The notes beneath the pieces are model-generated. The model made no database searches. It worked only from the letters and a program-made list of their open reading frames with translations, and was not told the origin of the DNA. A stretch of DNA of 64,000 nt, taken from Muscardinus avellanarius (lineage: Eukaryota > Chordata > Mammalia > Rodentia > Gliridae). The stretch lies in contig OY726576.1 in assembly GCA_963383645.1 (NCBI GenBank), positions 15,549,486 through 15,613,485 on the forward strand, in the 5' to 3' direction. Made by a program: the position numbers and the translations under genes. Positions 8,981 through 53,945 of the stretch are shown here, piece by piece. Every line of letters starts with the position of its first letter. The stretch's first letter is position 1.

Positions 8981-9836
8981 TAGTGGAGGTCACTGTTTAG
9001 CATTTACTTTTCTTTGGGGATCATCTCAGCGAGAGCGAGACTGACCTCTAGTGGAGGTTAATGTATTGAATTATACTTTTCTTTTGGGATCATCTCAGCG
9101 AGTTTAGACTCCACTGTAGTGGAGGTTAATGTATTGCATTTTACTTTTCTTTGGGGATCATCTCAGCGAGAGCGAGACTGCCCTCTAGTGGAGCTTACTG
9201 TTTTTCATTTTACTTTTCTTTGGGGATCATTTCAGGGACAACACTGCCCTCTAGTGGAGGTTAATGTATTGCATTATACTTTTCTTTGGGGATCTTCTCA
9301 GTGAGAATGAGACGGCCCTCTAGTGGAGGTTAATGTTTTGCATTATACTTTTCTTTGGGGATCATTTCAGCGACGAGACTGCCCTCTAGTGGACGTCTAT
9401 GTATTGCATTTTACTTTTCTTTGGGGATCATTTCAGCGACGAGACTATCCTCTACTGGAGGTTAATGTATTGCCTTATACTTTTCTTTGGAGATACTTTC
9501 AGTGAGAACGAGACTGCCCTCTACTGGAGGTCAATGTATTGAATTACACTTTGGGGATCATCTCAGCAAGAACAATACTGCCCTCTAGTGGAAGGTAATG
9601 TTTTGCATTATACTTTTCTTTGGGGATCTTCTCAGCGAGAACGAGACTGCCCTCTATTGGAGGTCAATGTATTGCATTTTACTTTCTTTGGGGATCATCT
9701 CAGCGCCTGCGAGACTGCCCTCTAGTGGATGTTACTGTATTGCATTATACTTTTCTTTAGGAATCATCACAGCCAGAATGAGACTGCCCAGGAGTGGAGC
9801 TTAATGTACTGCATTATACTTTTCTTTGGGGATTAT
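8981..9836 (-). repeat. 68-bp minisatellite with CTCF-like cores, array 1
   Basis: There are about 12 imperfect units, each running from CTCAGCGAGAACGAGACTGC through CCTCTAGTGGAGGTTAATGT to TTTTCTTTGGGGATCAT. Five units contain exact TGCCCTCTAGTGG (near 9179, 9246, 9381, 9574 and 9716). Its reverse complement CCACTAGAGGGCA is the core of the mammalian CTCF motif, so the motif direction is minus. Flanks of the extended motif match only partly. The first units (TGACCTCTAGTGG, CCACTGTAGTGG) and the last (GCCCAGGAGTGG) are diverged. CTCF occupancy is inference; the repeat itself is plain. Confidence 0.85.
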
Positions 9837-9862
9837 TTTTTGATTGATCAAAATTTATTGCA

Positions 9863-10290
9863 GCCGGGCGTGGTGGTGCACGTTTGTAATCCCTGCGCTT
9901 GGGAGACCGAGACAGGAGGATCACGCAGGTTCGAAGCCAGCCTAGCTGGCTTAAGAGACCCTGTTTCAAAAAAAAAAAAGTATAAAATAGGTCTGGGAAT
10001 TTAGCCCGGAGGTAGAAGGGTTTCCAGGAACCCCAGTACCCCCCAAAAAAAAACCCTTTGCAACAATGCACCAATAAAAAAATTAAAAACAAGCTGAGTG
10101 TGGTGGCGCACACTTGTAATCCCCGCACTTGGGAGGCTGAGACAGGAGGATCATGCAGGTTCGAAGCCAGCACGGTGGCTTAAGAGACCCTGTTTCCAAA
10201 TTTAAAAAAAAATATATAAAATAGGTCTGGGAGGTGGAAGGGCTTCCAGGAACCCCAGTACCACCAAAAAAAAAAAAAGTCTGGGACTAT
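9863..10290 (+). repeat. Two subfamily-B B1-dID SINEs
   Basis: Elements at about 9863-10050 and 10092-10285 belong to a distinct subfamily. It carries TTCGAAGCCAGC...GCTGGCTTAAGAGACC in the left part and GGTCTGGGA...GGGCTTCCAGGAACCCCAGT in the right part. Between them lies a short CAATGCACCAATAAAAA stretch like the L1 tail. Confidence 0.75.
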
Positions 10291-10339
10291 AGTCCTGAGG
10301 TATAGTCCTGTGTTCCTCCCCCAGTACCACACACAAGCA

Positions 10340-11256
10340 CACACAATCAAAATTGCCATCCTCCTGTCCCAGCCTCCTAAGTGCTAGGAATATGAGTGTG
10401 TGCCACCACACCTGTCTTGAATTTTTCATTTTGAAGCAGAGTCTCACTAAGTTACGGAGCCCTTGCTAAGTTGCTGAGGCTGGCCTTGAACCTGTGATTC
10501 TCCTGTCTCAGCCTCCCGGAACTAGGGTTTTCTTGAATCATGGCTGGATTTGGTGCAAAAGCCCAATAATGGCAGCTTAAACAAGGAGACTGTTTCTTCT
10601 AAAGAAACAGCGCTGTGAGATCAGAACGTAGCGTTTTCCACAGTACCGATACTCATACCACCTTCTACCTTGCTGATTTGTTCAACACGCCCTTGCTTCT
10701 TCTTCCTCCTCCTCCTCCTCCTCCTCCTCTTCTTCTTCCTCTTCCTCTTCTTTTGTGGTACTGGGGATGGAATCTAGGGGCATTCGACCTCCAAGTGACA
10801 TCCCCAGCCCTATTTTTTATTCTTTATTTCTTTTTGGTGGTACTGGGGCTGGAACCCAGAGGCTTTCTACCTCCAGGCTATACTCACAGACCTATTTTAT
10901 ATTTTATTTGGAAACAGGGTCTCACTAAGTTGCTGAGAGCCTCACTAAGTAGCTGAGGCTGGCTTCAAACCCGTGCGATCCTCCTGTCTCAGCCTCCCAA
11001 GCGATGGGATTACAAGCATGCACCACCATGCTCAGTTTGCACAACCCTTTTTGTTTTGTTTTGTTTTTTTGGTGGTCCTGGGGTTCCTGGAAGCCCTTCG
11101 ACCTTGGGACTACACTCCCAGACCTATTTTATATTTTATATTTTATTTGGAAACAGGATCTCTTACGCCAGCTTGGCTGGCTTCAAACCTGCGCGATCCT
11201 CCTGTCTTCGCCTCCCAAGCGCGGGGATGACAAGCATGCGCCACCACTCCCGGCTT
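10340..11256 (-). repeat. Cluster of minus-strand SINEs with a (CTT/CCT)n tract
   Basis: B1-part fragments lie at about 10340-10398 and 10398-10515. After a unique stretch there is a CTT/CCT microsatellite (10690-10755), then a trimeric SINE (10755-11040) and a subfamily-B SINE (11065-11256). The order is conserved at 54475-55412. The homologous pyrimidine tract at 49680 is a recombination breakpoint. Confidence 0.7.
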
Positions 11257-11259
11257 GCA

Positions 11260-11702
11260 GGACCCTTTCTGAGGATCACCTTGGAGAGTGGCCTGCTAGG
11301 ATTGCTGCCCCTACCCCGGTCATCACATACACATTTCTGCTTATAGGATGAAAGAAGAGAAGGGCAAGATACCCAACTTAAGGACACACAATTTTTTGCT
11401 TTTATCCTGCAAGCAAGAAAACACTTAGTCGCGTCTAACTGGGAAAGCGAGTATTCTGAACAGTTATGTATCTATGTAAAAACGAAGAGGAAAAGACAGC
11501 AACCGGGCATGGTGGGATGCGTTCGCAGTCCCGGTACGGATTGGATTCGGTGCGAGAGCCCAGTACTGGTAGCTTCAACCAGGAGAATGTTTCTCCTAAA
11601 AGATCAGAGCTGCGAGATCCGAGCGTGGACTGGGAGGCTGAGCCAGGAGGGGCGCGGGTTCGAGGCCAGCCTCCGCCTGCACTCTTTCTGATGGACACCT
11701 GG
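11260..11702. other. Sequence 3' of the SETMAR exon 2 copy
   Basis: No gene was recognised. It is about 98% alike by eye to 55415-55859 and would be the 3' UTR and flank of SETMAR on the minus strand. It includes an old B1-like stretch near 11505-11680. Confidence 0.45.
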
Positions 11703-12468
11703 CTAAGGGCAGTACAGTGAACCATCAAAAGGCAAGAACCCGGCACACGCTGCGGCCCCGCAGGAGCAGGGTTTCCGCAGCTGCCCGCCCTGGGGCCTCT
11801 CTTCTTCGCCCCCCTTCCACGGGGGCGAACCTTCCCGAATAGTCATAAGAGAGCTCTTCTCCCGGGCCGATGGCCGTGGCTGCGAAGAGGGCCAGTTTAG
11901 GTACCATCGAGTCGACTCGGACGGGGACCATGACCATGTTGGGCTGGCAGGAGTGGTTCAGGAACCGGCCGGCGTTCCCGATGGACGTGGGGTCCACGAA
12001 GGTCTCCAGGACCGGCCCGCCATATATGTGCTCCCTGACGGCGATGATGTAGTTGGGGTCCTGCCTCTTCTGCGAGTGAGTTCTCCTCCGCGCTTCCGAG
12101 GCGCCCAGGACCTCGCCGGCGTATTCACAGACGAATCTCCCTTTGGGTATCAACTCCAGGGTCCGCAGCCCCCAGCCCTTTCTGTCTGTCTTGAACACCT
12201 GCAGGCGGAACTGCAGCCCCCTCTGGACCACTCTGTTTGTGCAATGGTCCGCACACTGGCACAGGGCGTTGCATTCAAAGACGGGCCTGGAGTACTTGGC
12301 TCCCGGGCCTAGCACCCTGAGGCACAAGTGCTCGTCATAGTTCTCGTCCTGGCGGAGGCAGGGGCAAGAGCCGGGGAGGCAGGGGGCGGCGCCGCACCTG
12401 CAGCCGGGAAAGGTTATCTGAGTGGGGTCCATGGCGGCTCCAGGTCCCATGACGTGATCCGGGGTGTA
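11703..12468 (-). pseudogene. SETMAR: SETMAR exon 2 copy, frameshifted and without exon 1
   Basis: This is the homologue of SETMAR exon 2, starting after the acceptor ...GTTGACAG (12469 and up). It carries the pre-SET cysteines (CRCGAAPC, CQCADHC), the SET motifs GWGLRTLE, RFLNHSC and ELSYDYSG. Compared with the intact copy at 55860-56627, indels near 11815-11830 shift the frame after SYDYSGRF, so the post-SET cysteines CxC...C are lost. It also has changes such as HIYGGP for HVCGGP. The 1.1-kb segment that holds promoter and exon 1 in the other copy (57906-59036) is missing here, with the junction near 13750. The copy is therefore dead as SETMAR. Confidence 0.85.
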
Positions 12469-12527
12469 CTGTCAACATAGAAACGGTGCAAGTCAGCGTG
12501 AGACACGCCAGCAAAAGTACAAATAGA

Positions 12528-12740
12528 GGTGGGTGTGGCGGCGCACGCTTGTCATCCCAGCATTCGGAAGGCCGAGACAGGAGGATCACGGTTCTCAGAC
12601 AGCCTCAGCTACTTAGCGAGGCCCTTTGCAACTCAGTGAGACCCTGTTTCAAAATAAAGAATAAAAAAAAGTAGGGTTGGGAGTGTCGTTCGGAGGTAGA
12701 ATGCCCCTTGGTTCCAATCTCGGTACTGCAAAAAAAAAAA

Positions 12741-12793
<53 letters not shown>

Positions 12794-13700
12794 ATAGACA
12801 AATATTTTCATTATTATTAGTTTTATTATTGGTGGTACTGGGGTTCCTGGAAACCCTTCTACCTCCGGGCTGCACTCTCAGACATATTTTATATATATAT
12901 TTTTGGAAACAGGGTCTCTTAAGGCAGCACAGCTGGCTTTGAACCAGCTTGATCCTCCTGTCTTCGCCTCCCAAGAGCAAGGATTACAGGTGTGCGCCAC
13001 CACGCCCGGCAACAAGTATTATTTTCATGTGCATTTTGGAAAGTCTAACTAGTGCAGCAAAACACATGGCTTTATGGACAGTAATGATTATGATGATTCT
13101 AAAGAGAATAGTTATATAAATTAATTTATTATTATTATTACTATTTTGGTGGTACTGGGGTTCCTGGAAGCCCTTCTACCTCCGGGCTACACTCCCAGAC
13201 CTATTTTTATATTTTTATTTGGAAACAGGGTCTCTTTAGCCAGCAAGGCCGAACCAGCGCGATCCTCCTGTCTCCGCCACCCAAGTGCGGGGATTACCAG
13301 CGTGTGCCACCACGCCTGGCGTTTATTCTTAAATGAGTTAATTTCATCCTTAAAATAAAGTGAGTTCTTTTATTTCATTTGCGGGTCTGGGGATGGAACC
13401 GAGGGGCATTCTACCTCCGAGCTACACCCCTAGCCATATTTTTTATTCTCTATTTGGAAACAAGGTCTCACCATGTTACAGAGGATCTTACTAAGTAGCC
13501 CAGGCTGTCTGCTGCGATCCTCCTGGATCTCAGCCTCCTAAGTGCTGGAATTACAAGCATGTGCCACCACGCCCAGCCATTTTTAGTTTTTTGGGCTGGG
13601 AGATGGGGGTCTGGCTGTGTTGCTGAGACTGGCCTCAATCTCATGAAACTCCTGCCTACTTCCTGAGTAGCCAGAATTAGAGGCCTAGAACGCGGTGTCC
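12528..13700. repeat. SINE cluster in the former SETMAR intron, copy 1
   Basis: A + strand B1-dID SINE (12528-12735) is followed by a (TA)n tract (12742-12792), subfamily-B minus-strand SINEs (12828-13010 and 13143-13322), a standard minus-strand SINE (13378-13580) and a B1 fragment (about 13600-13700). All recur in order at 56687-57840 inside the intact SETMAR intron. Confidence 0.75.
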
Positions 13701-13867
13701 AGTTTAAAGTGAGTTAACTTCAATACATACATCAGGCCAATAGTTCTCCAAACTGCCGCATCAGAGGCCTGAGGGGGCGTGGGCTGACTGCACTTGTTTG
13801 GAGGGCACAGTCATCTGCACTGGGTAGAGGGCCCGTGTAGAGGGCTGCTCAAAAAGTGGTTACGAGC

Positions 13868-14500
13868 TAAGCACTGTGGCACACACCTGCAATCCCGGTT
13901 CTAGAGGCTCTGTGTCAAAATAAGGGATGAAAAATAGGGCTGGGGGTGTAGCTCGGAGGTCAAATGCCCCTGGGTTCCATCCCCACACCTGAAAAAAAAA
14001 AAAGAAAAAAAAGAAATTTAAGAAGTCTTTTCTCAAAAAAAAAAAGTTGTTTCTCATTGAGGTATATTTTGACAATTCTCAAACCCAAATACATGAACAC
14101 CTGCACTGGACAATTAAGTAAGTGGACAGCAGGAGGTAGGAGTCAGATTTCTCACCATTGAAGCACATCATAGAATTAACTTTTTTTTCTTTTTTGATAG
14201 TACTGGGGATGGAACCCAGGGGCATTCGACCTCCAAGCTACTCACCAGTCCTATTTTTGTTTTGAAACAGGGTCTCACTGACTTGCAGAGGGCCTCACCA
14301 AGTAGCTGAGGCTGACCATGAACTAAGATCCTCCTGTCTCAGCCTCCTGAATGCTGAGATTACTACCGGGAACCACCTTTGTTTTTTTTTGAAATGAGGT
14401 CTAAGTTACTGAGGGTCTTACGAGGTTGATGAACCTGTGATCCTCTGGTCTGAGCCCCCTAGGTACTGAGATTACAGGTATGTGTCACCACGCCCAGTTC
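13868..14500. repeat. Three SINE fragments
   Basis: A short + strand element lies at 13868-13990, with the B1 part internally deleted. Minus-strand elements lie at 14180-14375 and 14380-14500. Homologues are at 59155-59780 (same orientation) and 30690-31310 (inverted). Confidence 0.65.
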
Positions 14501-14559
14501 AGAATACATTTGTGTACAGACAAATTTGATCTTTTTTTTTTATTATGATTTAAGACTGA

Positions 14560-14900
14560 CTCCCGCTTACAAAAGTCAATTCTCTATGTTGTGTTACAGA
14601 CAGCCCCACAATTCAGAACTCAAAGCAGAAATTCAAGTATCATCCTCACTCCCAGTTCTACAAGTTGACTCGGCTCGGCTGAATGGTCCTCATTGCAGCT
14701 CCCATGAGGCTGCAGTCGTCGGCTGGGATCCCGTCCTGTGAAGCCCCGGCAGGACAGAGCATCCACGCGGCTCGCTCGCTGCCCGGCGTCCACGAGGCCG
14801 CTCCGTGGCTGGAGTTCTCAAGCTCAGCAACAGGGTTTGAAGAGGAGAGTTTCAGGCCTCTCATGAACTGAGCGCAGGGGCCCCTTAATATCACTTCTGC
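14560..14900 (-). other. Conserved GC-rich segment ending in an A-rich tail, copy 1 (possible retrocopy)
   Basis: Read on the minus strand, a frame of about 78 codons (14894-14658) is followed by about 100 bp of non-coding sequence and AATCATAATAAAAAAAAA. This resembles the 3' end of a processed transcript. Copies are at 30298-30640 (+, frame open for 88 codons) and 59820-60190 (-, frame shifted). I do not recognise the protein. It may be a retropseudogene fragment or an untranslated exon. Confidence 0.35.
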
Positions 14901-14909
14901 TATGTGAGG

Positions 14910-15275
14910 GGAGGGGCCAAGGGTGGGATTGGGACTGAAGCCAGAGGCAGTCTATCTCCCAGCCACACCCCAGGCTTTTTTATTTTGAAATGGGCCTTGC
15001 TAGGTCGCTGAGGTTTGCACTCAGTTGCTGAGGCTGGCCTCACATCTGCAATCCTCCTGGCTCAGCCTCCCTCAGGGGTAGGATTGTAGGTGTGCGCCAA
15101 CACACCTTTGGTTCTACTTTTTGTTGTTGTGGCGGTGGTGGTGGTTTGTTTTGTGGTACTGGGGATTGAGCTCAGGGGCATTCTACTTCAGAGCTGCATG
15201 CCAAGGCGCTTTTATTTTTTGGTTTGAAACAGGGTCTTCCTAGTTTGCTGCAAGTCTCACTAAGTGCGTGCTAGG
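14910..15275 (-). repeat. Two minus-strand SINEs with a (GTT/GGT)n patch
   Basis: Elements are at about 14910-15115 and 15150-15275. Duplicates lie at 60210-60550 and inverted at 29930-30275. Confidence 0.65.
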
Positions 15276-15507
15276 CTCTGCTCTATGCTTGATCAGGCAA
15301 GTTGACAAGGCTGTCCCAGATCCACAAGGAAGGAAACAAGACTTTCTCTCATTGTACTCAAATAGGGAAGGAATCGAGGATGTCTGTCTCAGAGAGTACA
15401 CAGTCCGCCCTCTCAACACTAAATTTCATCGGCATCCTAGTGAAATGTATATTCATGCCTCTTGCTAATATACGCTAGATTTTTTGCAGAACTGGGGATG
15501 GAACCTA
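15276..15507. other. Unique spacer up to a duplication breakpoint
   Basis: Homologous to 60551-60790 and, inverted, to 29800-29930. At about 15507 the sequence leaves the SINE that continues at 60790 and jumps into finger-exon sequence. This marks a rearrangement junction. Confidence 0.6.
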
Positions 15508-15697
15508 GGATCTATCGTCCGAGGCTCGCTGCTCCTTCTGGTCCTCCGCGTGTGGGTCCCCAGGTGCAACAAGTCTTTCTGCACATAAGCATCTGAAGAT
15601 CCAGGGGCAGTGGCCCACAGCATGTTTTTTTCCAGAGATTTCTGGTTGGAGAAATCAGGAGGGCAGAGAGTAATGGAGTGCTGGGGCGGGTTTGGTC
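15508..15697 (-). pseudogene. ZNF133: Truncated 5' end of a ZNF133-like finger exon
   Basis: Only the first 190 bp of the finger exon survive, from just after the minus-strand acceptor CCGGCAG to the breakpoint at 15508. It covers the LCPPDF... spacer region and no finger. It would be the terminal exon of the KRAB gene whose A and B exons are at 19200-19326 and 17987-18082. Small changes near 15622-15632 also disturb the frame. The homologous intact exon starts at 36607. Confidence 0.8.
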
Positions 15698-19143: not shown

Positions 19144-22439
<3,296 letters not shown>

Positions 22440-22760
22440 GAAGTTTGCCTGGACTACAACTCCCAGGATCCTCTGCGCTGTGGGCCTCTCCTCCCAGAAT
22501 GCTTCGGGGCTGCCATTGGCTGTGCTAGGTTTCTCTGGGTGACGCGATAGGGCCAGCAGGAGATGGTGGCCTCTTTAACTTAAAATCACACTTGTTAGTC
22601 ATGAAGAGCCTCTCTGAGGACGCTCCACCTTGCTGAGTACCTGCTCGGCGCTTCTCTAGACTACAAGTCCCAGCGAGCCCTGCAGGGACTTCCGCATCCG
22701 GGCTCTCCCCCTTGACAAGTGGAAGTGCCCGACCAGGGGGCGCTCTGGCACTTTTAGTGG
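22440..22760. promoter_or_regulatory. CpG-rich promoter-like block, copy 2
   Basis: ZNF143/THAP11-type motifs lie at 22452 and 22660. The YY1-like site seen in copies 1 and 3 is changed to AGATGGTGGC (22561). On the minus strand the block leads to the KRAB-A exon at 19326; on the + strand it leads to the finger exon at 24926. Confidence 0.5.
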
Positions 22761-22904
22761 AGCGGAAGTTCACCAGAGGTCTTTTTACCTGGACTTGGGC
22801 AGGTCCTAGGGCCTTGTTCTCCCCATCCAGCGCTATGCAGTTGGAAATCAGTGCCCATATTCCGGGGTCGCGGGCAGGTGGATCCCTATCCAGCTTGTTT
22901 ACAA

Positions 22905-23943
22905 TTGAGGAGGTGGCCCTGGGGATTGAACCCATGGTTGCCGGAGACTTGCCTGGAACTTCAAACCTTAAGTCTCAACTCCAAGTCCTGAGATTACAGG
23001 TGTGCACCATTGCCGCGCCTGTCCTTATATACTTTTCCCCTTTTTTGCAGTACTGGAGATTGAACCCAGGGGCATTCTACCTCTGAGCTACTATCCCTTA
23101 TTTTTTTTAATCCTTATTTTTAAACAGGCCTCACTAAGTAGCTGAGGCTGGCTGCTAACCTGTGATTACTCCTGTCTCAACCTCCCAAGGACTTGAAATT
23201 CAGGCCTGTGCCACATGCTCAGCTAACAGAATAAAATAAACAAAATGTAAGCAATCACAAGAGAATATAATTTCATTTTTAAAATATGAGACAGAATACA
23301 CTGACAATAGAATAGAATTAAAATAAGAATTTGATAGCCGGACTTGGTTGCCTACGCTTGTAATCCCAGCATTCAGGAGGCTGAGACTGGAGGATGGTGG
23401 TTAGCGGACAGCCTCAGCCAGTTAGCGAGGCCCCTTGCACCTTAGTGAGACCCTGTTTCCAAATAAAGTATAAAATATGTCAGGGAGTATAGCCCAGAGG
23501 TACAAAGCTCCTGGGTTCCACCTCAGTACCACAAAAATAAAATAAAAAGGCAAAAAATAGGGCAGAGGGAATAGATCAGAGGCAGAATGCTCCTTGGGTT
23601 CCATCTCCAGTACTAGCAAAAAAAATTGATAATCAAATTATTGTTAAAATATCTATATTACAATTGATTGATAATTTCACTGAAGGCATGGGGAATAGAG
23701 GTTATGGCCCAAATAACATTAAATATTTAGCTTAGGAAATCTAGAATACCTTTTAAATTTAAAATTTAGAAACTAGATTTTAGAAATTTCACTTTAGAGC
23801 CGGACGTGTTGGCACACACTTGTAATCCTAGTACTTGGGAAGTTGAGACAGGAGGATCTGGGTTCACAGGCAGCCTCAGCTACTTAGTGAGGCCCTTGGG
23901 AGATACAATGCCCCTGGGTTTAATCCCTAGCACAGCTAGTGTG

Positions 23944-23996
<53 letters not shown>

Positions 23997-24820
23997 CTCA
24001 TAGTTCAGAGGCCAGCAAGACCCTGTTACAAAATAAAAAATCAAAAGGCCTGGGGAGTGATTTGGGGTGTAGAATGCCCCTGAGTTTAATCTCTACTACA
24101 AAAAAATTAACTTTAGTATTGACCTTTATTAAACTTATATTTAAAATTAATATTAGAAATTTAGAATAGATGTTCTAGCCGGGCGTGGTGGCGCACGCTT
24201 GTAATCCCAGCATTCAGGAGGCTGAGACTGGAGGATTGCGGTTCGTGGATGGCCTCAGCTACTTAGGCCCTATGCAACTCAGTGAGACCCTTTTTCAAAA
24301 TAAAGAATAAAAAATAGGGCAGGGGGTGTAGAAAAGAGGTAAAATGCCCCTGTGTTCCATCCCCACACCTGTTCACTGGTTAGCTAGCTCTCAGTGAGAA
24401 AAAAGAACACAAGTTTCAGGCGTGGTTTCTGTGTGTGTTGCTGTGCGTTGGAAGGTTATCGTAGTGAGAATCATGTAGACTGTCGATGTTGTCCCTATTT
24501 ATACACCCAAGAGTGCCTGTGATGCCTGTGCTGTCCCCTGTCTGTTGAGCTGTACTGTTGGGCTGGGAAGTTGGTCATATACAGTAACTCTTGGAGCCGG
24601 GAGTGGTGGCGCACGCTTGTAATCCCAGCATCTGGGAGGCTGAGACCTGAGGATTGCAGTTCGCGGACAGCCTGAGCTACTTAGTGAGGTCGTCTGCAAC
24701 TCAGTGAGACCCTGTTTCAAAATAACAAGAATAAAAAATTGGGCAGGGTGTGTAGCTTGGAGGTCAAATGCCTCTGTGTTCCATCCCTAGACCCACTAAA
24801 TAAATAAATAAATAAATAAA
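22905..24820. repeat. SINE series upstream of finger exon copy 2
   Basis: Elements lie at 22905-23020 (-), 23045-23225 (-), 23336-23620 (+, trimer), 23799-24110 (+, split by (CA)n 23950-23991), 24177-24370 (+) and 24596-24800 (+) with a short (TAAA)n tail. All are shared with copies 1 and 3. Confidence 0.75.
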
Positions 24821-24925
24821 GTACCTCTTGGTCAGTAACATTTGCTATTAAGGATTTTGAAGAATGTGGTCAAGTCTCACCATCAAATGAGTTCCATCTG
24901 ACTTGGGCTTCTCTTTCTCTGGCAG

Positions 24926-25860
24926 GACCAAACCCGCCCCTGCACTCCATTACTCTCTGCCCTCCTGATTTCTCCAACCAGAAATCTCTGGAGCAAAACG
25001 TGCTTTGTGGCCACTGTCCCTGCGTCTTCACATGCTTATGTGCAGAAAGACTTGTTGCACCTGGGGACCCACACGCGGAGGACCAGAAGGAGCAGCGAGC
25101 CTCGGACGATAGATCCTGGAGCGACAGAGCAGAAGATCAAGACAGAGAAGGCTCCAAGTCTCGTTTTGGTAGGCCCAAGAAAAGTACTTTTGGAGAATTT
25201 CCCAGGCCACCCCAGAGGCTACCAGGTAGCTCCCAGCATCACATCAGAGCACTGGGGATGGAGGAGAGCCCGGCTCAGACGAGGACCCCCAAAGACTCCG
25301 ACAAGGTGCTGAGGAGGGCAGAAGGTCTAGGTCTTGGAGCAGTTGCCTGTGGCCAGCGCAGACTGCGTTCCAGCAAGATGACCGGCCTGCTCAGTCACCA
25401 GAGGACACACTCGGTGGAGAAGCCATACGTGTGCGGTGTGTGTGAGAAGGGCTTCAGTCTGAAGACGTGCCTGACCAGGCACCAGAAGCTGCACTCGTGG
25501 AAGAAGCCCTTTGTGTGTGGCGAGTGCGGGCGACGCTTCACACGGAAGGCCTCCCTCATCATCCACCAGAGGACGCACTCAGGCGAGAAGCCGTATGTGT
25601 GCCAAGAGTGCGGGCGAGGCTTCAGGCTGAAGTTTATTCTCACCATCCACCAGAGGACGCACTTGGGCGGGAAGCCGTTTGTGTGCCGAGACTGCGGCAA
25701 AGGCTTTACTCTGAAGTCGACCTTGGTTAGACACCAGATTACCCACTCAGGCGAGAAGCCCTACGTGTGCCATGAATGCGGGCGAGGCTTTAACCGTAAG
25801 TCCAACCTCATCATCCACCAGAGGACACACTCAGGCGAGAAGCCATATGTGTGCAGTTAG
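24926..25860 (+). pseudogene. ZNF133: ZNF133-like finger exon, copy 2, part before the internal stop
   Basis: The exon opens after the acceptor CTCTTTCTCTGGCAG and reads through the ZNF133-type spacer (IFTCLCAE near the start). It then has one degenerate finger (first cysteine pair damaged) and five good C2H2 fingers, the first [20 protein letters not shown]. It stops at TAG 25858-25860, where PYVCSEC became PYVCS-stop by a single G to T change (GAG to TAG). The same frame stays open for another 672 codons. No KRAB exon is seen upstream on this strand. If transcribed, the product would be a KRAB-less protein of about 310 aa. Confidence 0.75.
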
Positions 25861-35327: not shown

Positions 35328-39921
<4,594 letters not shown>

Positions 39922-39969: not shown

Positions 39970-42959
39970 TTAAACCCTGTCCCTATCCAGCCAGCTGCAC
40001 TTGTGAACACACACATTCAACGTCCTGGGTGGCCTGCTTGGGGTGTACATGAAAATGAAAAATCCCTAAGTTTTGAGAACTTTAGCTCTAGGCAGAAGAG
40101 CAAACAATATAAAAAAAATTAAACGCTAGTCAAGTACAATAGACTAAATTTTAAATATTTAAAAGGACAGTGATCGTATTGGTGCTGGGGGATCTAAGGA
40201 ACTGAACTCATACAGTTCCACAATGGCAAAGACTAAACCACAGCCCAGCCTTTTCTGATTCCCACAGACCGCGGCCTGCTCTGGTTGAGCTCATGAGAAG
40301 TGGCCACGTATGTACAGCACAGTGTCTGAGGGGGAGGCCTCCTCCCCACCAGTGAAGGCCACCATTCTCTTCCACTATGCAGTGTGAGGGCCATGGAAAC
40401 CCACGACTGAATGTTGTTCAAAGCAGCACACAGCCAGGCAGGAGAACCGACAGCTGCCGAGAGAGGAATGCGGGACTATGGGTGGAGGAGCAGTGAGGGG
40501 ACCACTGAGCTCTGTGCTCCCTGGAGAAGCTCTCATCGTTAGAGCCTCTTTTCCTGGAGGAACCAGCTGGAGCTCCGATCCGTGGAGAGAACACTGCGGG
40601 AAACGCTAATATTGAACGCAGAAAACCTGCACATGGTTCAAGAGGCAAAGGCAGAGGCCCTCACCTGAGCTGGGCAGTCAGGAGCCCAGGAGTCCTCCCT
40701 CTCCCCAGCAGGCAGTCCTCCTGGGCAGCCAGGGTCACAGGACACAGAGCAAGAACAAAAAGTGTTCAGCGAAGTCACTGGGAATCCTCCAGGGCCAACA
40801 TAGCGGCACCTCCTCCTCCTTAAGCACCAGGGAGGGACCTGCCACAGAAGACAAGGACAGGCTGCGAGCGGCTTCCTAGGCGCAGAGCTGGGATGTGGTC
40901 TAGGAGCTGAGCCTGCCAGCGGCGGCAGTGGAGTTCACGTGTAATCCCAGCATCTCAGGAGGCTGAGGCAGAAGGATTGCAACCTTGAGGCCAGCCAGGA
41001 AACTTAGTGAGACCCTGTTTCAAAATTTAAAAAGATAAAAAAAAACAAACATCTGGGGTGCAACTCAGTGGCAGAGCATTCCTAAATTCATCCCCAGAAC
41101 CACAAGAAGGAAAGAAAGAGAGGATGGCAAGCAAGGAGGGAGGTATGGAGCCTCTTCTGACACGCTGTCAACACTGAGCACGAAGCCTTCCTCTGCTACT
41201 GAAGATGAAAGGAAAGACGTGCTGAGCTCGTACTACACAGAGACTGTTCCAGACACCGCGTCGCGCCTCATCTGTCCTTACAACAGCCCCATCAAGAAGC
41301 CGTGGTACCACTTCACAGACGAGAACACTGAGGCACAGTGAGATCAGTCTCTCGCCCCTGGTGACAAATTATAAAGCGACAAGCTGCAGAGATCTGGCTG
41401 TGGAGACGAGGCTCTTCAAGGCTGTTGGAGTCTGTGAGATGAGTCAGGCTGGTCACGAGGCTCTTCAGTGTGGATTCTGCGTGACAAGTCTGGGGAGGGC
41501 CACCTGCTTCTGGGCACCTGCCGTTTCTCATTGTAAAACATGAAAATGGGACATAAAATCCTGTGGGTTTTGTGGCCAACGCCAGCCCCCTGGACCTTGC
41601 AAGACTTGCCAAAGAAGCCCCAGCTCGACCGCCTCCTCCAAGGCCAAACCCAGGGACGGTCAGACAGATTGATACCCTAGATCGTGCCACCATGGCCACC
41701 CCATGCCCAGTCAAAACCACGCTTGTCCGCTTAAGCCACGTGCCCTGCGCCCTGCCTTAGAAAGGCAGGATTGAAACCAAGGGGTCTTTCTATTCCGGGT
41801 TCTTTTCCAGTGGATATCGACGAACTCTGAGGACTAGGAAGAGTACAGAAATATGAAAGCTTCTTTTAGGTTAGGGAAAGATAAGGCAACAGAACAGATA
41901 AGAGCAAAGACAGAGTACAAAGGGGGGTCCTGAAAATAGTGATCCCGACACCCTTGGGAAGTAGAGTGTGTGTGTGTTACTGGAGAGGGAACCCGCGGCA
42001 TTCTACCTTCGTGCTAAATCCCCAGCCCTAGTTTTCATTCTTCATTTTGAAACAGGGTACAAGAGGGCTTTTTAACATACCTGAGGGTTTCTATCAGCTT
42101 TTTTTTTTTTTTTTTTGGTGGTACTGGGGGTGGAACCCAGGGCCTTTTCTACCTCCGGGCTATACTCCCAGACCTATTTTATACTTTATGTAGAAACAGG
42201 GTCTAAGTTGCTGGGAGCCTCACTCAGTGGCTGAGGCTGCCTTCAACCTGTGCCATCCTCCTGTCTCAGCCTCCCAAGCGCGGGGAGTACAAGCGTGCAC
42301 CGCCACGCCGGCTTCTATCTGCTTTTTTATGATTAGTCAGAATTGGGTTGGGGGACCGCGGCTTCTGCAGTGTCAGCCCTTCACCTGAACCACCTGGGGG
42401 CCGCTGGGGCCTGGTTCCGTGGCCTCGCACTCTCACCCTCTGCTCACCTCGCCAAGCTCACTGGGGACGCAGATGGCCACTTTAAAGCTTTCTGTTCCTG
42501 GCCCTCGGCCCTGCCTCTGATCAGGCCTGACCACCACCAGCTCGGAAGCCAACGAACCACCGGACCTGGCGCCAGGGACAGTCCCGTCGCCTGCGATCTC
42601 AGACCCCTACCACCCCACGCCCCAAGCCCCCGACCCTGCAGCCCTACGGCATGAGCAACCCCGTCGCCATGTCGGATTTCACCCCAGGCCGAGTCTCTCC
42701 GCCACGAGAACCCTAGGACAGAGGCCCGGCCGCGCACTCACCTCCCACCACTCGCAGCTCACTGCAAGTTACTTCTCCAGAGGCAGCGCTGCCACGGGCT
42801 CCGCCACCCACGCGCCGGCTCGTCCGCACGGCGCTGCGGGCTCTCCTCCAAGCAGAAAAGGGCAGGGCTAGCGAGGGGCTCCGGCCTCCGGCCTCACTCA
42901 CCACCGCCGGGAGGAACGAGGGGTGGTCTGCCCCTTAGCGCGGGCTCTCCACAAGAAGT
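39970..42959. other. Inferred intron 1 of the KRAB-ZNF; duplicon A copy 3 starts at 40637
   Basis: No coding exon is seen. SINEs are at about 40938-41105 (+), 41975-42070 (-) and 42100-42315 (-). Minus-strand donor-like GGGAGGTGAGTGCGCGG near 42737 may end the 5' untranslated exon. Confidence 0.55.
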
Positions 42960-43270
42960 TTGCCTGGACTACAACTCCCAGGATCCTCTGCGCGGCGGAC
43001 CTCACCTCCCAAGATGCTCCGCGGCTGCCATTGGGTCGCTGGGTGTGTCTCTGGGTGACGAGATAGGGCCAGCTGGAGATGGCGGCCTCTTTAATTTAAA
43101 ATCACACTCATTAGTCATGAAGAGACTCTCAGATGATGCTCCGCCTTGCTGAGTAAATGCTCTGTGCTTCTCATAGACTACAAGTCCCAGCGAGCCCTGC
43201 AGGGACTTCCACATTCGGCCGCGCCCCTTGGCAAGCTGAAGTGCCCAACCAGGCGGCGCTTTGGCGCTTT
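42960..43270. promoter_or_regulatory. ZNF133: CpG-rich promoter-like block, copy 3 (likely promoter of the intact KRAB-ZNF)
   Basis: ZNF143/THAP11-type motifs lie at 42968 and 43177, with the YY1-like AGATGGCGGC at 43077. A minus-strand donor GGTGGTGAGTGAGG is near 42898. It sits 3.1 kb upstream of the KRAB-A exon on the minus strand and 2.2 kb upstream of finger exon copy 3 on the + strand. Confidence 0.55.
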
Positions 43271-43409
43271 TAGTGGAGCAGAAGTTCACAGCGGTCTTTT
43301 ACCTGGACTTGGGCAGGTCCTAGGGCCTTGTTCTCCCATCCAGCGCTATGCAGTTGGAAATCAGTGCCCATACTCCGGGGTCGCGGGCAGGTGGATCCCT
43401 ATCCAGCTT

Positions 43410-44451
43410 GTTTACAATTGAGGAGGTGGCCCTGGGGACTGAACCCGTGGTTGCTGGAGGCTTGCCTGGAACTTCAAACCTTCAGTCTCAACTCCAAGTC
43501 CTGAGATTACAGGTGTGCACCATCGCCGCGCCTGTCCTTATATACTTTTCCCTTTTTTGCAGTACTGGATATTGAACCCAGGGGCATTCTACCTCTGAGC
43601 TACTATCTTGTTTTTTAATCCTTTATTTTTAAGCAGGCCTCACTAAGTAGCTGAGGCTGGCTGCTAACTTGTGATTACTCCTGTCTCAACCTCCCAAGGA
43701 CTTGAATTTCAGGCCTGTGCCACATGCTCAGCTAACAGAATAAAAGAGACAAAATATAAGCAATTACAAGAGAATATAATTTCATTTTTAAAATATGAGA
43801 CAGAATACACTGACAAAAGAATATAATTGAAATAAGAATTTGATAGCCAGACTTGGTTGCCTACGCTTGTAATCCCAGCATTCAGGAGGCTGAGACTGGA
43901 GGATGGCGGTTAGCGGACAGCCTCAGCCAGTTAGCGAGGCCCCTTGCACCTTAGTGAGACCCTGTTTCCAAATAAAGTATAAAATATGTCAGGGAGTATA
44001 GCCCAGAGGTACAAAAGCCCCTGGGTTCCACCCCAGTACCACAAAAATAAAATAAAAAAGTAATAAATAGGGCAGAGATGATAGCTCGGAGGCAGAATGC
44101 CCCTGGGTTCCATCTCCAATACTACCAAAAAAAATTGATAATCAAATTATTGTTAAAATATCTATATTATAATTGATTGATAATTTCACTGAAGGCCTGG
44201 GGAATAGAGGTTATGGCCCAAATAACATTAAATATTTAGCTTAGGAAATTTAGAATACCTTTTAAATTTATAATTTAGAAACTAGATTTTAGAAATTTCA
44301 CTTTAGAGCCGGACGTGTTGGCATACACTTGTAATCCTAGTACTTGGGAAGCTGAGACAGGCGAATGTGGGTTCACAGGCAGCCTCAGCTATTTAGTGAG
44401 GCCGTTGGGAGGTACAGTGCCCTGGGTTTAATCCCTAGCACAGCAAGCGTG

Positions 44452-44502
<51 letters not shown>

Positions 44503-45357
44503 CTCACAGTTCAGAGGCCAGCAAGACCCTGTTACAAAATAAAAAATCAAAAGTCCTGGGGAGTGGTTTGGGGTGTAGAATGCACCTGAGTTTAATCTCT
44601 ACAACAAAAAAAATTTAACTTTACTATTTAGCTTTATTAAACTTATATTTAAAATTAATATTAGAAATTTAGAATAGATGTTCTAGCCAGGCGTGGTGGC
44701 GCATGCTTTAATCCCAGCATTCAGGAGGCTGAAACTGGAGAATTGCGGTTCGTGGATGGCCTCAGGTACTTAGGTCCTATGCAACTCAGTGAGACCCTTT
44801 TTCAAAATAAAGAATAAAAAATAGGGGAGGGGGTGTAGCTCAGAGGTCAAATGCCCCTGGGTTCTATCCCCATACCTGTTCACTGGTTAGCTAGCTCTCA
44901 GTGAGAAAAAAGAACACAAGTTTCAGGCGTGGTTTCTGTGTGTGTTGCTGTGCATTGGAAGGTTCTCGTAGTGAGAATCATGTAGACTGTCGATGTTGTC
45001 CCTATTTATTCACCCAAAAGTGCCTGTGATGCCTTTGCTGTCCCCTGTCTGTTAAGCTGTACTGTTGGGCTGGGAAATTGGTCATATACAGTACCTCTTG
45101 GAGCCCGGCATGGTGGCGCATGCTTGTAATCCCAGCATTTGGGAGGCTGAGACCTGAGGATTGTGGTTCGCAGACAGCCTGAGCTACTTAGTGAGGTTAT
45201 CTGCAACTCAGTGAGACCCTGTTTCAAAATAACAAGAATAAAAAATTGGGCAGGGGGTGTAACTTTGAGGTGAAATGCCTCTGTGTTCCATCCCCAGACC
45301 CACTAAATAAGTAAATAAATAAATAAGTAAATAAATAAATAAATAAATAAATAAATG
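43410..45357. repeat. SINE series upstream of finger exon copy 3
   Basis: Elements are at 43410-43535 (-), 43555-43735 (-), 43850-44130 (+, trimer), 44308-44450 (+), (CA)n 44455-44498, 44685-44870 (+) and 45103-45300 (+) with a long (TAAA)n tail to 45357. Confidence 0.75.
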
Positions 45358-45463
45358 AAGTACCTCTTGGTCAGTAACATTTGCAATTAAGGATTTGAAG
45401 AATGTGGTCAAGTCTCACCATCAATTGAGTTCCATCTGACTTGGGCTTCTCTTTCTCCGGCAG

Positions 45464-46287
45464 GACCAAACCCACCCCAGCACTCCAATACTCTCTGCCC
45501 TCCTGATTTCTCCAACCAGAAATCTCTGGAGCAAAAGGTGCTGTGTGGCCACTGCCCCTGCGTCTTCACATGCTTATGTGCAGAAAGACTTGTTGCACCT
45601 GGGGACCCACACGCGGAGGACCAGAAGGAGCAGCGAGCCTCGGACGATAGATCCTGGAGCAACAGAGCAGAAGATCAAGACAGAGAAGGCTCCAAGTCTC
45701 GGTTTGGTAGGCCCAAGAAAAGTACTTTTGGAGAATTTCCCAGGCCACCCCAGAGGCCACCAGTTAGCTCCCAGTATGATATCAGAGCATTAGGGATGGA
45801 GGAGAGCCCGGCTCAGACGAGGACCCCCAAAGACTCCGACAAAGTGCTGAGGAGGGCAGAAGGCCTAGGTCTTGGAGCAGTTGCCTGTGGCCAGCGCAGA
45901 CTGCGTTCCAGCAAGATGACCGGCCTGCTCAGTCACCAGAGTACACACTCGGTGGAGAAGCCATACGTGTGCGGTGTGTGTGAGAAGGGCTTCAGTCTGA
46001 AGACGTGCCTGACCAGGCACCAGAAGCTGCACTCGTGGAAAAAGCCCTTTGTGTGTGGCGAGTGCGGGCGACGCTTTACATAGAAGGCCTCCCTCACCAT
46101 CCACCAGAGGACGCACTCAGGCGAGAAGCCCTATGTGTGCCAAGAATATGGGTGAGGCTTCAGGCTGAAGTTTATCCTCACCATTCACCAGAGGACGCAC
46201 TTGGGCGAGAAGGTATACGTGTGTGAGTGCCGCAAAGGCTTCACTCAGAAGTCGACCTTCGTTAGACACCAGATTACCCACTCAGGA
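45464..46287 (+). pseudogene. ZNF133: ZNF133-like finger exon, copy 3, truncated
   Basis: It starts after the acceptor CTTTCTCCGGCAG. The spacer and first fingers are open to TAG 46081-46083, where a glutamine or arginine codon became a stop in the third finger. A second break follows near 46154 (GGGTGAGGC). At 46287 the finger sequence (ATTACCCACTCAG) is fused to spacer B-alpha (GACGTAATTCTAGTCAG), so all later fingers are missing. Confidence 0.8.
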
Positions 46288-47576: not shown

Positions 47577-47795
47577 CCAGTCTGCTGCAACTTCCCACCC
47601 ATGTGAAGACGCACTCGGGGAGAAGCCATATGTGCCTCGAGTGCGGCAGGTGAGGCTTTAGGCGGAAGTCCCACTTCATCGTCCACGAGAAAAAGCACTG
47701 TAGAGAGAAGCCGGACGTGTGCCACGAGTGCAGCAAAGGCTTCAGCCAGGAGTCCATCTTTGTTGGACACTAGTGGACACACTCGAAGGAATAGC
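47577..47795 (+). pseudogene. ZNF133: Degenerate two-finger C2H2 remnant, copy 3
   Basis: Homologous to 8760-8975, with TGA near 47651 and TAG near 47771. It directly precedes array 3. Confidence 0.65.
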
Positions 47796-47797
47796 CG

Positions 47798-48792
47798 TAG
47801 TGGAAGTCACTGTTTAGCATTTACTTTTCTTTGGGGATCATCTCAGCGAGAGTGAGACTGACCTCTAGTGGAGGTTAATGTATTGAATTATACTTTTCTT
47901 TGGGGATCATCTCAGCGAGTTTAGACTCCACTGTAGTGGAGGTTAATGTATTGCATTTTACTTTGCTTTGGGGATCATCTCAGTGAGAGCGAGACTGACC
48001 TCTAGTGGAAGTTAATGTATTGAATTATACTTTTCTTTGGGGATCATCTCAGCAAGTTTAGACTCCACTGTAGTGGAGGTTAATGTATTGCATTTTACTT
48101 TTCTTTGGGGATCATCTCAGCGAGAGCGAGACTGACCTCTAGTGGAGCTTACTGTCTTTCATTTTACTTTTCTTTGGGGATCATCTCAGTGAGAACAACA
48201 CTGCCCTCTATTTGAAGTTAATGTTTTGCATTATACTTTTCTTTGGGGATAATTTCAGTGAGAACGAGACTGCCCTCTAGTGGAGGTTAATGTATTGAAT
48301 TACTCTTTGGGGATCATCTCAGCAAGAACAACACTGCCCTCTAGTGGATAGTAATGTTTTGCATTTTACTTTCTTTGGGGATCTTCTCAGTGAGAGTGAG
48401 ACGGCCCTCTAGTGGAAGTTAATGTTTTGCTTTATACTTTTCTTTGGGGATCATTTCAGTGACTGCGAGGCTGCCCTCTACTGGAGGTCAATGTATTGCA
48501 TTGTACTTTTCCTTGGGGATCATTTCAGCGACGAGACTGCCCTCTACTGGACGTCAATGTATTGCATTGTACTTTTCTTTGGGGATCATTTCAGCGACGA
48601 GACTGCCCTCTAGTGGAGGTTAATGTATTGCATTGTACTTTTCCTTGGGGATCATCTCAGTGACTGTTAGACTGCCCTCTAGTGGATGTTACTGTATTGC
48701 ATTATACTTTTCTTTAGGAATCATCACAGCCAGAACGAGACTGCCCAGGAGTGGAGCTTAATGTACTGCATTATACTTTTCTTTGGGGATTA
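47798..48792 (-). repeat. 68-bp minisatellite with CTCF-like cores, array 3
   Basis: There are about 14 units. Exact TGCCCTCTAGTGG occurs near 48268, 48333, 48600 and 48668, and TGCCCTCTACTGG near 48470 and 48537. The first two diverged units (TGACCTCTAGTGG, CCACTGTAGTGG) are locally duplicated here (47858/47927 and 47993/48060). The motif direction is minus. Confidence 0.85.
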
Positions 48793-49284: not shown

Positions 49285-49330
<46 letters not shown>

Positions 49331-49510: not shown

Positions 49511-49682
49511 TTTCTTTAATCATGGCTGGATTTGGTGCAAAAGCCCAATAATGGCAGCTTAAACAAGGAGACTGTTTCTTCTAAAGAAACAGCGCTGTGA
49601 GATCAGAACGTAGCGTTTTCCACAGTACCGAATTTCATACCAACTTCTACCTTGCTGATTTGTTCAACGCACCCTTGCTTCT

Positions 49683-50130
49683 TCTTCCCACCTCATCATC
49701 CACCAGAGGACACACTCAGGCGAGAAGCGATATGTGTGCAGTGAGTGTGACAGAGGCTTTAGCCGGAAGTTCTGCCTCATCATCCACCAGAGGACACACT
49801 CAGGTGAAAAGCCGTATGTGTGTAGTGAGTGTGACAAAGGCTTCAGCGAGGAGGCCAGACTCACCATCCACCAGAGGACACACTATGGGAGAAGCCGTAA
49901 GTGTGCAGCGAGTGTGACAAAGGCTTCAGCCAGAAGTCCTACCTCACCATCCACCTGTGGACACACTCGGGCGAGAAGCTGTGCGTGTGCAAGGAGTGCG
50001 GCAAAGGATTCAGTTAGAAGATCTACCTCATCATCCACCAGAGGACACACTCGGGTTAGAAGCACTACATGTGCCATGATGTGAGCGAAGTTTTAACCAG
50101 AAGTTCCACTTTCTGCCACCTCTGATTCCT
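49683..50130 (+). pseudogene. ZNF133: C2H2 finger fragment fused to a pyrimidine tract
   Basis: About five fingers' worth of sequence, beginning mid-finger (CACCTCATCATCCACCAG), follow directly after CTTGCTTCTTCTTCC. In copies 1 and 4 that stretch continues as a CTT/CCT microsatellite. Frameshift near 49890 and TAG near 50015 break it. It matches 6085-6520 of copy 1, so this is the start of an internal tandem duplication. Confidence 0.8.
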
Positions 50131-50650
50131 CTTCCACCTCTGATTCCTCTTCCACCTCTGATTCCTCTTCCACCTCTGATTCCTCTTCCTAGGCATTTGC
50201 GTGCCTGAAAGATTCATGCGCAAAAAATTGGCTGGCTTTAGCAAGGCCGGGATCGGAGCCTGCCGTGAGGCAAGGCTGGTGCTGGGGCTTCCAAGGCTGG
50301 GATCAGAGCCTCCTGAGGGGTTAGGCTGATGCCGGGGCCAGTGGCTGGCATCAGAGCCTTCCATGAGGCAAGGCCGTTATTGAGGCCTCTGAGGCCAGGA
50401 TCGGAGCCTGCCGAGGGGTTAAGCCGGTGCTGGAGCTAGCGAGGCCGGCATTGGAGCCTGCCTTGAGACAAGGCCGGTGCTGGGGCCTCTGAGGCCGGGA
50501 TTGGAGCCAGCTGAGGGGTTAGGCCAGTGTCGGGGCCAGCGAGACCAGAATCGGGGCCTCCCACGAGACAAGGCCGCTGCTTGAGCCAGCGAGGTCTGGA
50601 TCAGTCCACCGGGTAGCCAGGCCACAACTGGGGCCATCAAGAGTGGGATC
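50100..50650. repeat. Expanded GC-rich minisatellite
   Basis: Four CACCTCTGATTCCTCTTC units (50119-50190) precede about six or more imperfect units of GGCCGGGATCGGAGCCTGCC type. The homologous block at 6533-6840 is roughly half as long. Confidence 0.65.
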
Positions 50651-50689
50651 GGTATTTGTAATGCAGCATGCACAAAGAAATATTGCAGA

Positions 50690-52300
50690 AAATTAAAACC
50701 AGATGCTTCCCCTAATCAGCAATAACTAGGAGGAAAGGGGCAACGGGAAGTGGTCGAGCTATAGAAAGGGCCCTATAGTGAAGCAATTAAGGTGACCAAT
50801 CAGAGGGTATGGAATAGGGGAGGATGGAGCCTCTTTAAAAAGCAGGAGGAACATAAACAAATGTATCAAAGTTAATCACCAAACAAGCATGGGATCGAGG
50901 GAGGGGGAGGGAATGGGATGGGGGCTGGATGAGGGCTAATTGGATGATGTGTGCTTGTATATCCTCTCAAGTCTTGTATTCCAATGTGATGTATGATTTA
51001 AAATAATTTTTAAAAAATTTGGCTGGCTTAAAGAAAACAGAGCCCCGAGTGAAAGTGTTGTCTCTGGCCAAAGTACTCCCCCACTCCTAGATATTCTTTC
51101 ATAACTATTATTCTTTAGGTAATGATTCTTTTAACTTTCCACATGAATTGCTCCGGTGATATAAGATCAGGACTGTGAGAGAAACTGAGTCTGTGGAAAA
51201 TAAATTTTCTAGTAATTTGTCTAAGCCTCTAAACACCCTCGGCTTTGCTCAAAGACGTAATTCTAGTCAGAATTCAGATCCTGTGGAAGCATTCCTGCTA
51301 CAGCAATTACAAATGCAGAATTCCTCCCTATCTGTGACCTTCATTCTAATAATTACAATAGAGCAGAGAGCTAGGAGGAATCTTGACCTTTGCACCTAGT
51401 GATAGCACTGCCTGGAGACGGGGCGACACCACCTGGGTAAAGTAGTTATGACAGAACAAACGACAGATATAATAAAAACTTCATGTTGTTTTTTGGGCCC
51501 TGTCTACTAAAATATATTTTAAGTGTTTAATAGGGTGAAGCGTTCAGACAGCAGATGGTATTGCAGACAAAATCCAACAGACATTCATCGAAATCCTCTA
51601 AATTGTCATAAATGTACATGGATTTCCCTACACCAACTACACGTATGAAAGCTGGAATCTCGGACTTCATCCCCATTCAGTTCAAAGGAGTTTGCTAGAT
51701 AGAGAAGGACTTTGGACTAAGCCCTAGGAATAAAAGGTTTCAAAAGGGTTAAAGAAAACTCTTAAAAACTGAATTCTTCAAGGGATTTTGGGTGTGACTT
51801 TTGTTCTTCTGGAATTTGCCCACTAAAAGCCTCTGCAGCTGCAAGGCCAAGGCAAGGCCAAAGGGGCTGACTTAAAGCACAAACCCACCTGCAGGGTCAT
51901 GGGACTGATTTCAATCACAAAGACCTGGGATGTCACAGGCCTCGCTTTTGTCTTGTTCAGGGTTGGTGATTTACATGTACATCTCACTATTGTTTTTTGG
52001 GTGTTTGCACTTTACTACTAGGGAATCACGGGGAAATAGGGAAGTACAACAAAATCTTGTGTCTAGAATAAAGTGTCAATTGCACAAGAGGCATTTGTCC
52101 GTGTCAATCGTTTCAGATTTTTTTTTCCCGGAGAGGTATCTCCACTTTTAGCGCCGTGAACCGGAACTTAAAGGAGTTTATTTCATAAAAAAGGGAAAAA
52201 ATCGCTGCAGAGAAGTGGCTGCAGAACTATAACCGAAACCTTTGCCCACCTTTCTGAGAAACTCAGTCCCGAACAGACTCAGTGCCCATATTCAGTGCCC
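50690..52300. other. L1 fragment and spacer B-alpha/B-beta, copy 4
   Basis: The L1 3' end-like piece is at about 50870-51020, followed by B-alpha (51040-51775) and B-beta (51775-52235). The SINE seen in copies 1 and 3 is absent at 51775. No gene is seen. Confidence 0.5.
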
Positions 52301-52306
52301 AGCTGA

Positions 52307-52525
52307 GCCAGTCTGCCGCAACTTCCCACCCATGTGAAGACGCACTTGGCGAGAAGCCATATGTGCCTCGAGTGCGGCAGGTGAGGCTTTAGGCGGAAGT
52401 CCCACTTCATCGTCCACGAGAAAAAGCACTGCAGAGAGAAGCCAGACGTGTGCCACGAGTGCAGCAAAGGCTTCAGCCAGGAGTCCATCTCTGTTGGACA
52501 CTAGTGGACACACTCGAAGGAACAG
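52307..52525 (+). pseudogene. ZNF133: Degenerate two-finger C2H2 remnant, copy 4
   Basis: Homologous to 8760-8975, with the same stops at equivalent places, so these stops predate the duplications. Confidence 0.65.
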
Positions 52526-53945
52526 CCGTAGTGGAGGTCACTGTTTAGCATTTACTTTTCTTTCGGTATCATCTCAGCGAGAGCGAGACTGACCTCTAGT
52601 GGAGGTTAATGTATTGAATTATACTTTTCTTTGGGGATCATCTCAGCGAGTTTAGACTCCACTGTAGTGGAGGTTAATGTATTGCATTTTACTTTGCTTT
52701 GGGGATCATCTCAGCGAGAGCGAGACTGCCCTCTAGTGGAGCTTACTGTCTTTCATTTTACTTTTCTTTGGGGATCATCTCAATGAGAACGAGACTGCCC
52801 TCTAGTGAAGGTTAATGTGTTGCATTATACTTTTCTTTGGGGATCTTCTCAGCAAGGAGACTGCCTCTTAGTGGAGGTTAATGTATTGAATTACACTTTT
52901 CTTTGGGGATCAAATCAGCGAGAACAACACTGCCCTCTAGTGGAAGTTAATGTTTTGCATTATACTTTTCTTTGGGGAATCGTGTCAGAGAGAACAAGAC
53001 TGCAGTGCAATGAGGTTAATGTACTGCACTTTACTTTTCTTTGGGGATCATCTCAAAGAGAATGAGATGGCCCTCTACTGGAGGTTAATGTATTGCCTTA
53101 TACGTTTCTTTGGGGATCATTTCAGTGACTGCGAGACTGCCCTCTAGTGGAGGTTAATGTATTGAATTACACTTTTTTGGGGGGATGATCTCAGCAAAAT
53201 CAACACTGCCCTCTAGTGGAAGGTAAAGTTTTGCATTATACTTTTCTTTGGGGATGATTTCAGTGAGAATGAGACTGCCCTCTAGTGGAGGTCAATGTAT
53301 TGCATTGTACTTTTCTTTGGGGATCATTTCTGCGACGTGACTGCCCTCTAGTGGAGGTTATTATATTGCATTATACATTTCTTTGGGGCTCATTTCAGTG
53401 AGAACAACACAGCCCTCTAGTGGAGGTCACTGTATTGCATTTTACTTTTCTTTGGGGATCATCTCAGCAGCGAGAACGAGACTACCCTCTAGTGGTTAAT
53501 GTATTTCAATACACTTTTTTGGGGGGATCATCTCAGTGAGAACAACACTGCCCTCTATTGGAAGTTAATGTTTTGCATTATACTTTTCTTTGGGGATCTT
53601 CTCAGCGAGAATGAGACGGCCCTCTAGGGGAGGTCAATGTATTGCATTTTACTTTTCTTTGGGGAATCATGTCAGGGAGAACAAGACTGCACTGCAGTGA
53701 GGTTAATGTATTGCCTTATACTTTCCTTTGGGGATAATTTCAGCGAGAACGAGACTGCCCTCTACTGGATGTTAATGTATTGCATTTTACTTTCTTTGGG
53801 GATCATCTCAGCGACTGCGAGACTGCCCTCTAGTGGATGTTACTGTATTGCATTATACTTTTCTTTGGGAATCATCACAGCGAGAACAAGACTGCCCAGG
53901 AGTGGAGCTAAATGTACTGCATTATACTTTTCTTTGGGGATTATT
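52525..53945 (-). repeat. 68-bp minisatellite with CTCF-like cores, array 4 (longest)
   Basis: There are about 20 units. Exact TGCCCTCTAGTGG occurs near 52724, 52927, 53132, 53203, 53272, 53337 and 53818, and TGCCCTCTACTGG near 53755. Two units with a shared odd core (GACTGCAGTGCAATGAGG near 52997 and GACTGCACTGCAGTGAGG near 53683) suggest block duplication inside the array. The motif direction is minus. Confidence 0.85.

Follow-up and report, generated by a model that had tools for sequence, protein, structure and literature searches.

DXZ4-type macrosatellites carry CTCF sites in tandem, in units that are kilobases long. Primate beta satellite has its neighbourhood in common with the locus described here, since it is found in zinc-finger clusters, where its monomer measures 68-69 bp. 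Repeats can also spread CTCF motifs by retrotransposition, and the main text of Schmidt et al. (2012; PMC3368268), which contains neither the word 'satellite' nor the word 'squirrel', describes CTCF sites carried by SINE B2 in mouse and rat. In the window studied here (the whole stretch of 64,000 nucleotides that was analysed) there are four arrays that resemble DXZ4-type macrosatellites in being tandem arrays of a unit with a CTCF-like site. They differ in having a unit of 69 bp instead of kilobases, in being four in number, in lying within a zinc-finger/SETMAR duplicon and in being known from sequence alone. With SINE B2, as that article presents it, they have in common that repeats have multiplied a CTCF motif in mammals, although the process is retrotransposition there and tandem plus segmental duplication here. 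The likeness to beta satellite lies in unit length and zinc-finger neighbourhood, but sequence similarity to a reconstructed monomer was not above that of shuffles (P 0.61 in local, 0.46 in circular and 0.058 in GATC-anchored comparison), and kinship was rejected. Our main reading, to which we give about an even chance (0.5), is that of an old minisatellite, segmentally duplicated, whose unit is by chance a directional CTCF site and for which partial CTCF binding is predicted.

Tandem Repeats Finder recovers all four arrays where the sequence-only reading had placed them, with a period of 69 (8981-9833, 31924-32847, 47798-48790 and 52529-53941). The CTCF-like core lies on the minus strand in A1 (8981-9836; 12 full units and partial edges), A3 (47798-48792; 14 full units and partial edges) and A4 (52525-53945; 20 full units and partial edges) and on the plus strand in the inverted copy A2 (31922-32850; 13 full units and one partial edge), with a total array length of 4201 bp in the matrix scan. 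Wraparound alignment gave 59 full units (12+13+14+20 in A1-A4), 56 of them distinct. The unit is closer to 69 bp than to the 68 bp given earlier. The earlier counts of a 13-mer were both exact: TGCCCTCTAGTGG occurs 19 times in the window (16 + 3 by strand) and its G/C variant six times. Searching the window with the unit profile yielded no convincing single copies outside the arrays, and no Rfam family matched the window at its gathering score. One 30-letter pattern from the unit had, as expected, 0 exact matches in viral contigs and 0 in prokaryote contigs.

The setting had been described as a KRAB-ZNF/SETMAR duplicon, and C2H2 exons, KRAB-A matches and SETMAR frames are all present. The zinc-finger exons comprise copy 1 (5236-6467, plus strand), with 10 finger matches in a broken reading frame; an inverted copy with 13 finger matches (34755-36137, minus strand), which in gene direction precedes A2; a truncated copy (45970-46116, plus strand; 2 finger matches) upstream of A3; and a fragment (49686-50063, plus strand; 4 finger matches) upstream of A4. 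Copy 2 (25371-28640, plus strand) is the longest, and no array was found downstream of it in the same orientation within the window. A short finger remnant precedes A1 by 15 bp (C2H2 finger match at 8903-8965, plus strand, read across a stop codon). Similar matches stand in the same way before A3 (47720-47782) and A4 (52451-52513), and at A2 the homologous stretch is inverted and contains no full C2H2 pattern match. An origin of the core from a zinc-finger linker was considered and rejected, as the matches of the unit profile in coding finger sequence were no better than E 0.23. On the side of A1 opposite to the remnant (6500-15600 searched), the array is adjoined by a 7SL-derived (B1/Alu-like) SINE (9863-9969, plus strand; a Metazoa_SRP match of 33.3 bits, where the gathering score is 70). 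An approximate KRAB-A pattern matches, with three substitutions, at 39769-39825 (minus strand), with a second copy at 19264-19320 (minus strand). Two SET/Pre-SET open frames lie on the minus strand at 11725-12471 and 55860-56630; the closest solved structure to the latter is SETMAR 3bo5 (430 bits), and the former is assigned to SETMAR by homology to it.

A self-comparison that kept matches of at least 600 bp revealed several duplicated blocks and paired, among others, positions 1-5636 with 40637-46286 (94.2%), 1-6526 with 20134-26646 (92.1%), 8981-13756 with 53076-57906 (93.3%) and 13752-15509 with 59034-60796 (97.2%). The first two complete units, the last three and the last partial unit correspond in order across A1-A4, and 52 of the 59 units lack any nearest relative in their own array. 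Since the nearest relatives are mostly in other arrays and the edges share their order, amplification preceded duplication. Between copies, the array-edge units diverge by 2.1-3.6% and the adjoining flanks of 742-766 bp by 3.0-4.6%. Internal gains or losses of units can also be seen; for example, A3 contains a repeated doublet, and A4 has additional units. The correspondence among units gives good support to an array whose main unit types predate the duplication of the locus and whose later changes were internal. The minisatellite would have arisen just behind the finger remnant of a KRAB zinc-finger duplicon; after its amplification to about a dozen units, segmental duplication would have produced the four arrays, with adjoining flanks 3-5% diverged. 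This order of events is well supported.

The constant placement of the arrays could also be seen as the mark of an insulator, amplified and kept by selection as tandem CTCF sites that isolate the neighbouring zinc-finger genes. Four out of four arrays are located behind a zinc-finger exon copy in the same relative orientation, and each has retained at least nine sites of at least 13 bits. However, position and orientation were inherited from one duplication unit and have to be counted once, the zinc-finger frames near the arrays are broken or interrupted, and the longest exon copy is the one for which no array was found. We consider a selected insulator improbable, and the substitution data discussed below bear on it as well.

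That the unit carries a CTCF core was borne out by 30 exact matches to the IUPAC core in the window, all of them inside the arrays, compared with 0.26 expected by chance and no more than 2 in any of 100 shuffles. The scan against shuffled sequence that had been proposed as a check was run with a reconstructed MA0139.1 matrix, for which 13.3 bits corresponds to a p of about 1e-5. Within the arrays, 41, 35 and 24 sites reached at least 13.3, 15 and 16.7 bits, against means of 0.02, 0.03 and 0 (at most 1) in 100 dinucleotide shuffles of the arrays; when the whole window was shuffled 20 times, the means were 2.05, 0.55 and 0.2. In the 52609 bp outside the arrays and a hand-drawn zinc-finger mask there were no sites of at least 13.3 bits (best 12.8). 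The figure of about 59 candidate sites was too high, and about 41 good (13.3 bits) and 24 strong (16.7 bits) sites are a better estimate; still, with 41 matches at 13.3 bits for 59 units, it is not the case that most units fall under the usual threshold. Scored unit by unit, leaving out five units with an alignment gap inside the 19-mer, 40/59 reached at least 13.3 bits and 22/59 at least 16.7, and the core is clearly broken in nine units, each scoring -0.2 bits. The consensus 19-mer of the unit, which is also that at the tree root, scores 18.43 bits.

Matches of at least 9 bits were present in 47 of the 59 units, and at this level each array uses a single strand (minus in A1, A3 and A4, plus in A2), so that the one motif orientation per array typical of DXZ4-type repeats is found here, as is the motif in most, not all, of the tandem units. 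Same-facing sites of at least 13 bits number 9 to 13 per array. Adjacent sites are spaced 64-72 bp apart, and broken units leave gaps in the row. At the level of sequence, then, the arrays are dense, same-strand and high-scoring CTCF matches. The core had been described as free of CpG, and this holds for the consensus 19-mer, where methylation should therefore affect predicted binding little; a few units do carry a CpG inside the 19-mer, and the unit consensus has two CpGs within 9 bp 3' of it.

The zinc-finger exons provide an internal warning. The 7190 bp of masked zinc-finger sequence contain 36, 6 and 1 matches at 13.3, 15 and 16.7 bits (best 17.5), a consequence of the likeness of finger-linker codons to the CTCF core. 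The threshold of 13.3 bits alone is therefore weak: matrix matches at 13-15 bits do not equal binding. This coding DNA lends some weight to a rival reading in which the minisatellite is neutral, its CTCF-like core arose by chance and it has no meaningful occupancy in vivo; the founder 19-mer would have been a lucky one, and the 59 units would amount to one event. A score of 18.4 bits has a p of about 3e-7, and a random 69-bp unit would hold such a site at about 4e-5 (69 positions, two strands). A mammalian genome has ten thousand or more minisatellites, and across them a case or so is expected by chance. The core, moreover, shows no constraint (see below). Against neutrality without occupancy stand the 24 array sites of at least 16.7 bits, scores at which CTCF usually occupies its sites, and a weak excess of surviving sites in a tree-based null. 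We regard it as a possible reading, if a somewhat doubtful one.

The sequence-only reading had also taken the core as the part of the unit that varies least, and this did not hold. By divergence, 24 of the 69 circular 12-column windows are more constant than the core; at equal width, 37 of 69 windows are less divergent than the 19-mer, and 29 of 69 than the earlier 13-mer. Mean divergence from consensus is 0.092 for the core 12-mer, 0.104 for the 19-mer and 0.109 for the whole unit. In a tree built from the 56 distinct units, 27 of the 173 changes counted fall in the core and 32/69 windows have fewer (P 0.41 by column permutation; P 0.71 without CpG and indel columns). Constancy above the rest of the unit was equally absent after duplication, within clusters of near-identical units drawn at distance thresholds of 3, 4 and 5 (34, 40 and 44 of the 59 units): odds ratios were 0.67, 0.88 and 0.87 for the core (P 0.32, 0.46 and 0.42) and 1.21, 1.10 and 1.15 for the 19-mer, and, without CpG and indel columns, 0.98, 1.20 and 1.16 for the core and 2.12, 1.67 and 1.67 for the 19-mer. 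The orthologous edge units point the other way: summed over six pairs that are non-independent, differences are seen at 9/624 positions of the 19-mer and at 53/1686 of the rest. The rate of change in the core and in the 19-mer is close to that elsewhere in the unit, and this unreduced rate is a further argument against a selected insulator.

The effect of the changes on the matrix score was also considered. The mean matrix change was -2.29, where -2.76 was expected (P 0.097; with a flat null, 0.047), and for distinct change types P was 0.25. In the tree-based null (1000 runs, with gaps filled by parsimony), 42 of the 59 units stayed at or above 13.3 bits against 29.9 +/- 6.1 (P 0.035, uncorrected for the number of tests), a result that speaks for the main reading and also for an insulator. 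For units of at least 16.7 bits the comparison was 24 with 16.0 +/- 4.8 (P 0.071), and for the mean unit score 13.1 with 12.8 (P 0.39). There is no clear selection on the sites, and one of the three tree-null measures is a weak hint of excess survival.

The lowest divergence (about 0.05) and the fewest changes of all windows are found in ATGATCCCCAAAGAAAAGT. Another DNA-binding protein, for instance a KRAB zinc-finger protein, might read this block, with the CTCF core as a passenger. The scan of the block gave P 0.024 at 16 columns, but P 0.22 at 12 and 0.078 at 19, a marginal result, and no candidate protein could be named from the analysis; we find this very improbable.

CTCF sites may have a second element, M2, with the 9-bp consensus TGCARTNCC, and in example two-part sites it is separated by a spacer of 5 or 6 bp from the 19-mer that follows. 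In the arrays, the 9-mer located 4 bp before the 19-mer agrees with this consensus at 8/9 positions in 27 units, 7/9 in 26 and 6/9 in 6 (n=59), and the mean agreement at 5 and 6 bp is 3.1 and 1.1 positions. The unit would therefore be one base short. The main text of PMC3368268 gives a total of 33/34 bp for the two-part site, without stating this register of M1 and M2. A bolder view would be that near-complete two-part sites (M1 and an M2-like element), 64-72 bp apart, form convergent CTCF fences (A2 versus A3/A4) around zinc-finger genes and were multiplied with those genes, giving a short-unit, DXZ4-like boundary by tandem duplication. We think this unlikely.

Returning to the old, duplicated minisatellite, its unit happens to hold a good directional site, and most probably CTCF would bind some of the stronger units and, once bound, would stall cohesin from one side. 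By the convergent rule A2 would be a partner of A3 or A4, the convergent arrays forming a putative loop pair. In KRAB zinc-finger clusters H3K9me3 heterochromatin is common; it could prevent CTCF from reaching the arrays and counts against this reading.

If the arrays are unbound, they would be a caution against equating dense motif matches in minisatellites or zinc-finger exons with binding. If they are bound, they would offer a natural series of 12-20-unit arrays with graded CTCF site strength within one duplication family, in which the effect of site number and orientation on boundary strength could be tested directly, and tandem duplication would be, besides the spread of SINEs, a way in which CTCF sites are multiplied.

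The array unit of about 69 bp that is repeated in A1-A4, and which carries a CTCF-like core, reaches its greatest constancy outside this core, in columns 67-69 and 1-16 of the circular unit (ATGATCCCCAAAGAAAAGT). The scan statistics for this block were marginal.

Besides these four arrays, second minisatellites lie where zinc-finger copy 4 ends (50112-50602): an 18-bp unit present in 4.3 copies is followed by a GC-rich 50/100-bp unit. At zinc-finger copy 1, this 18-bp unit has only 2.3 copies (6529-6570). Near the end of the window there is a near-perfect tandem repeat (63095-63321) of a 54/111-bp unit containing CCCCGATCAAAGGGGGC. The surrounding genes are otherwise broken, but both SET-domain frames of the SETMAR type, on the minus strand, are still open (248 aa, 11725-12471; 256 aa, 55860-56630).

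The CTCF matrix (MA0139.1) also matches coding DNA, dozens of times at about 14.4 bits, at the linker codons CACCAGAGGACACAC of the zinc fingers (exons at 5236-6467, 25371-28640 and 34755-36137), and these matches are a source of false positives.
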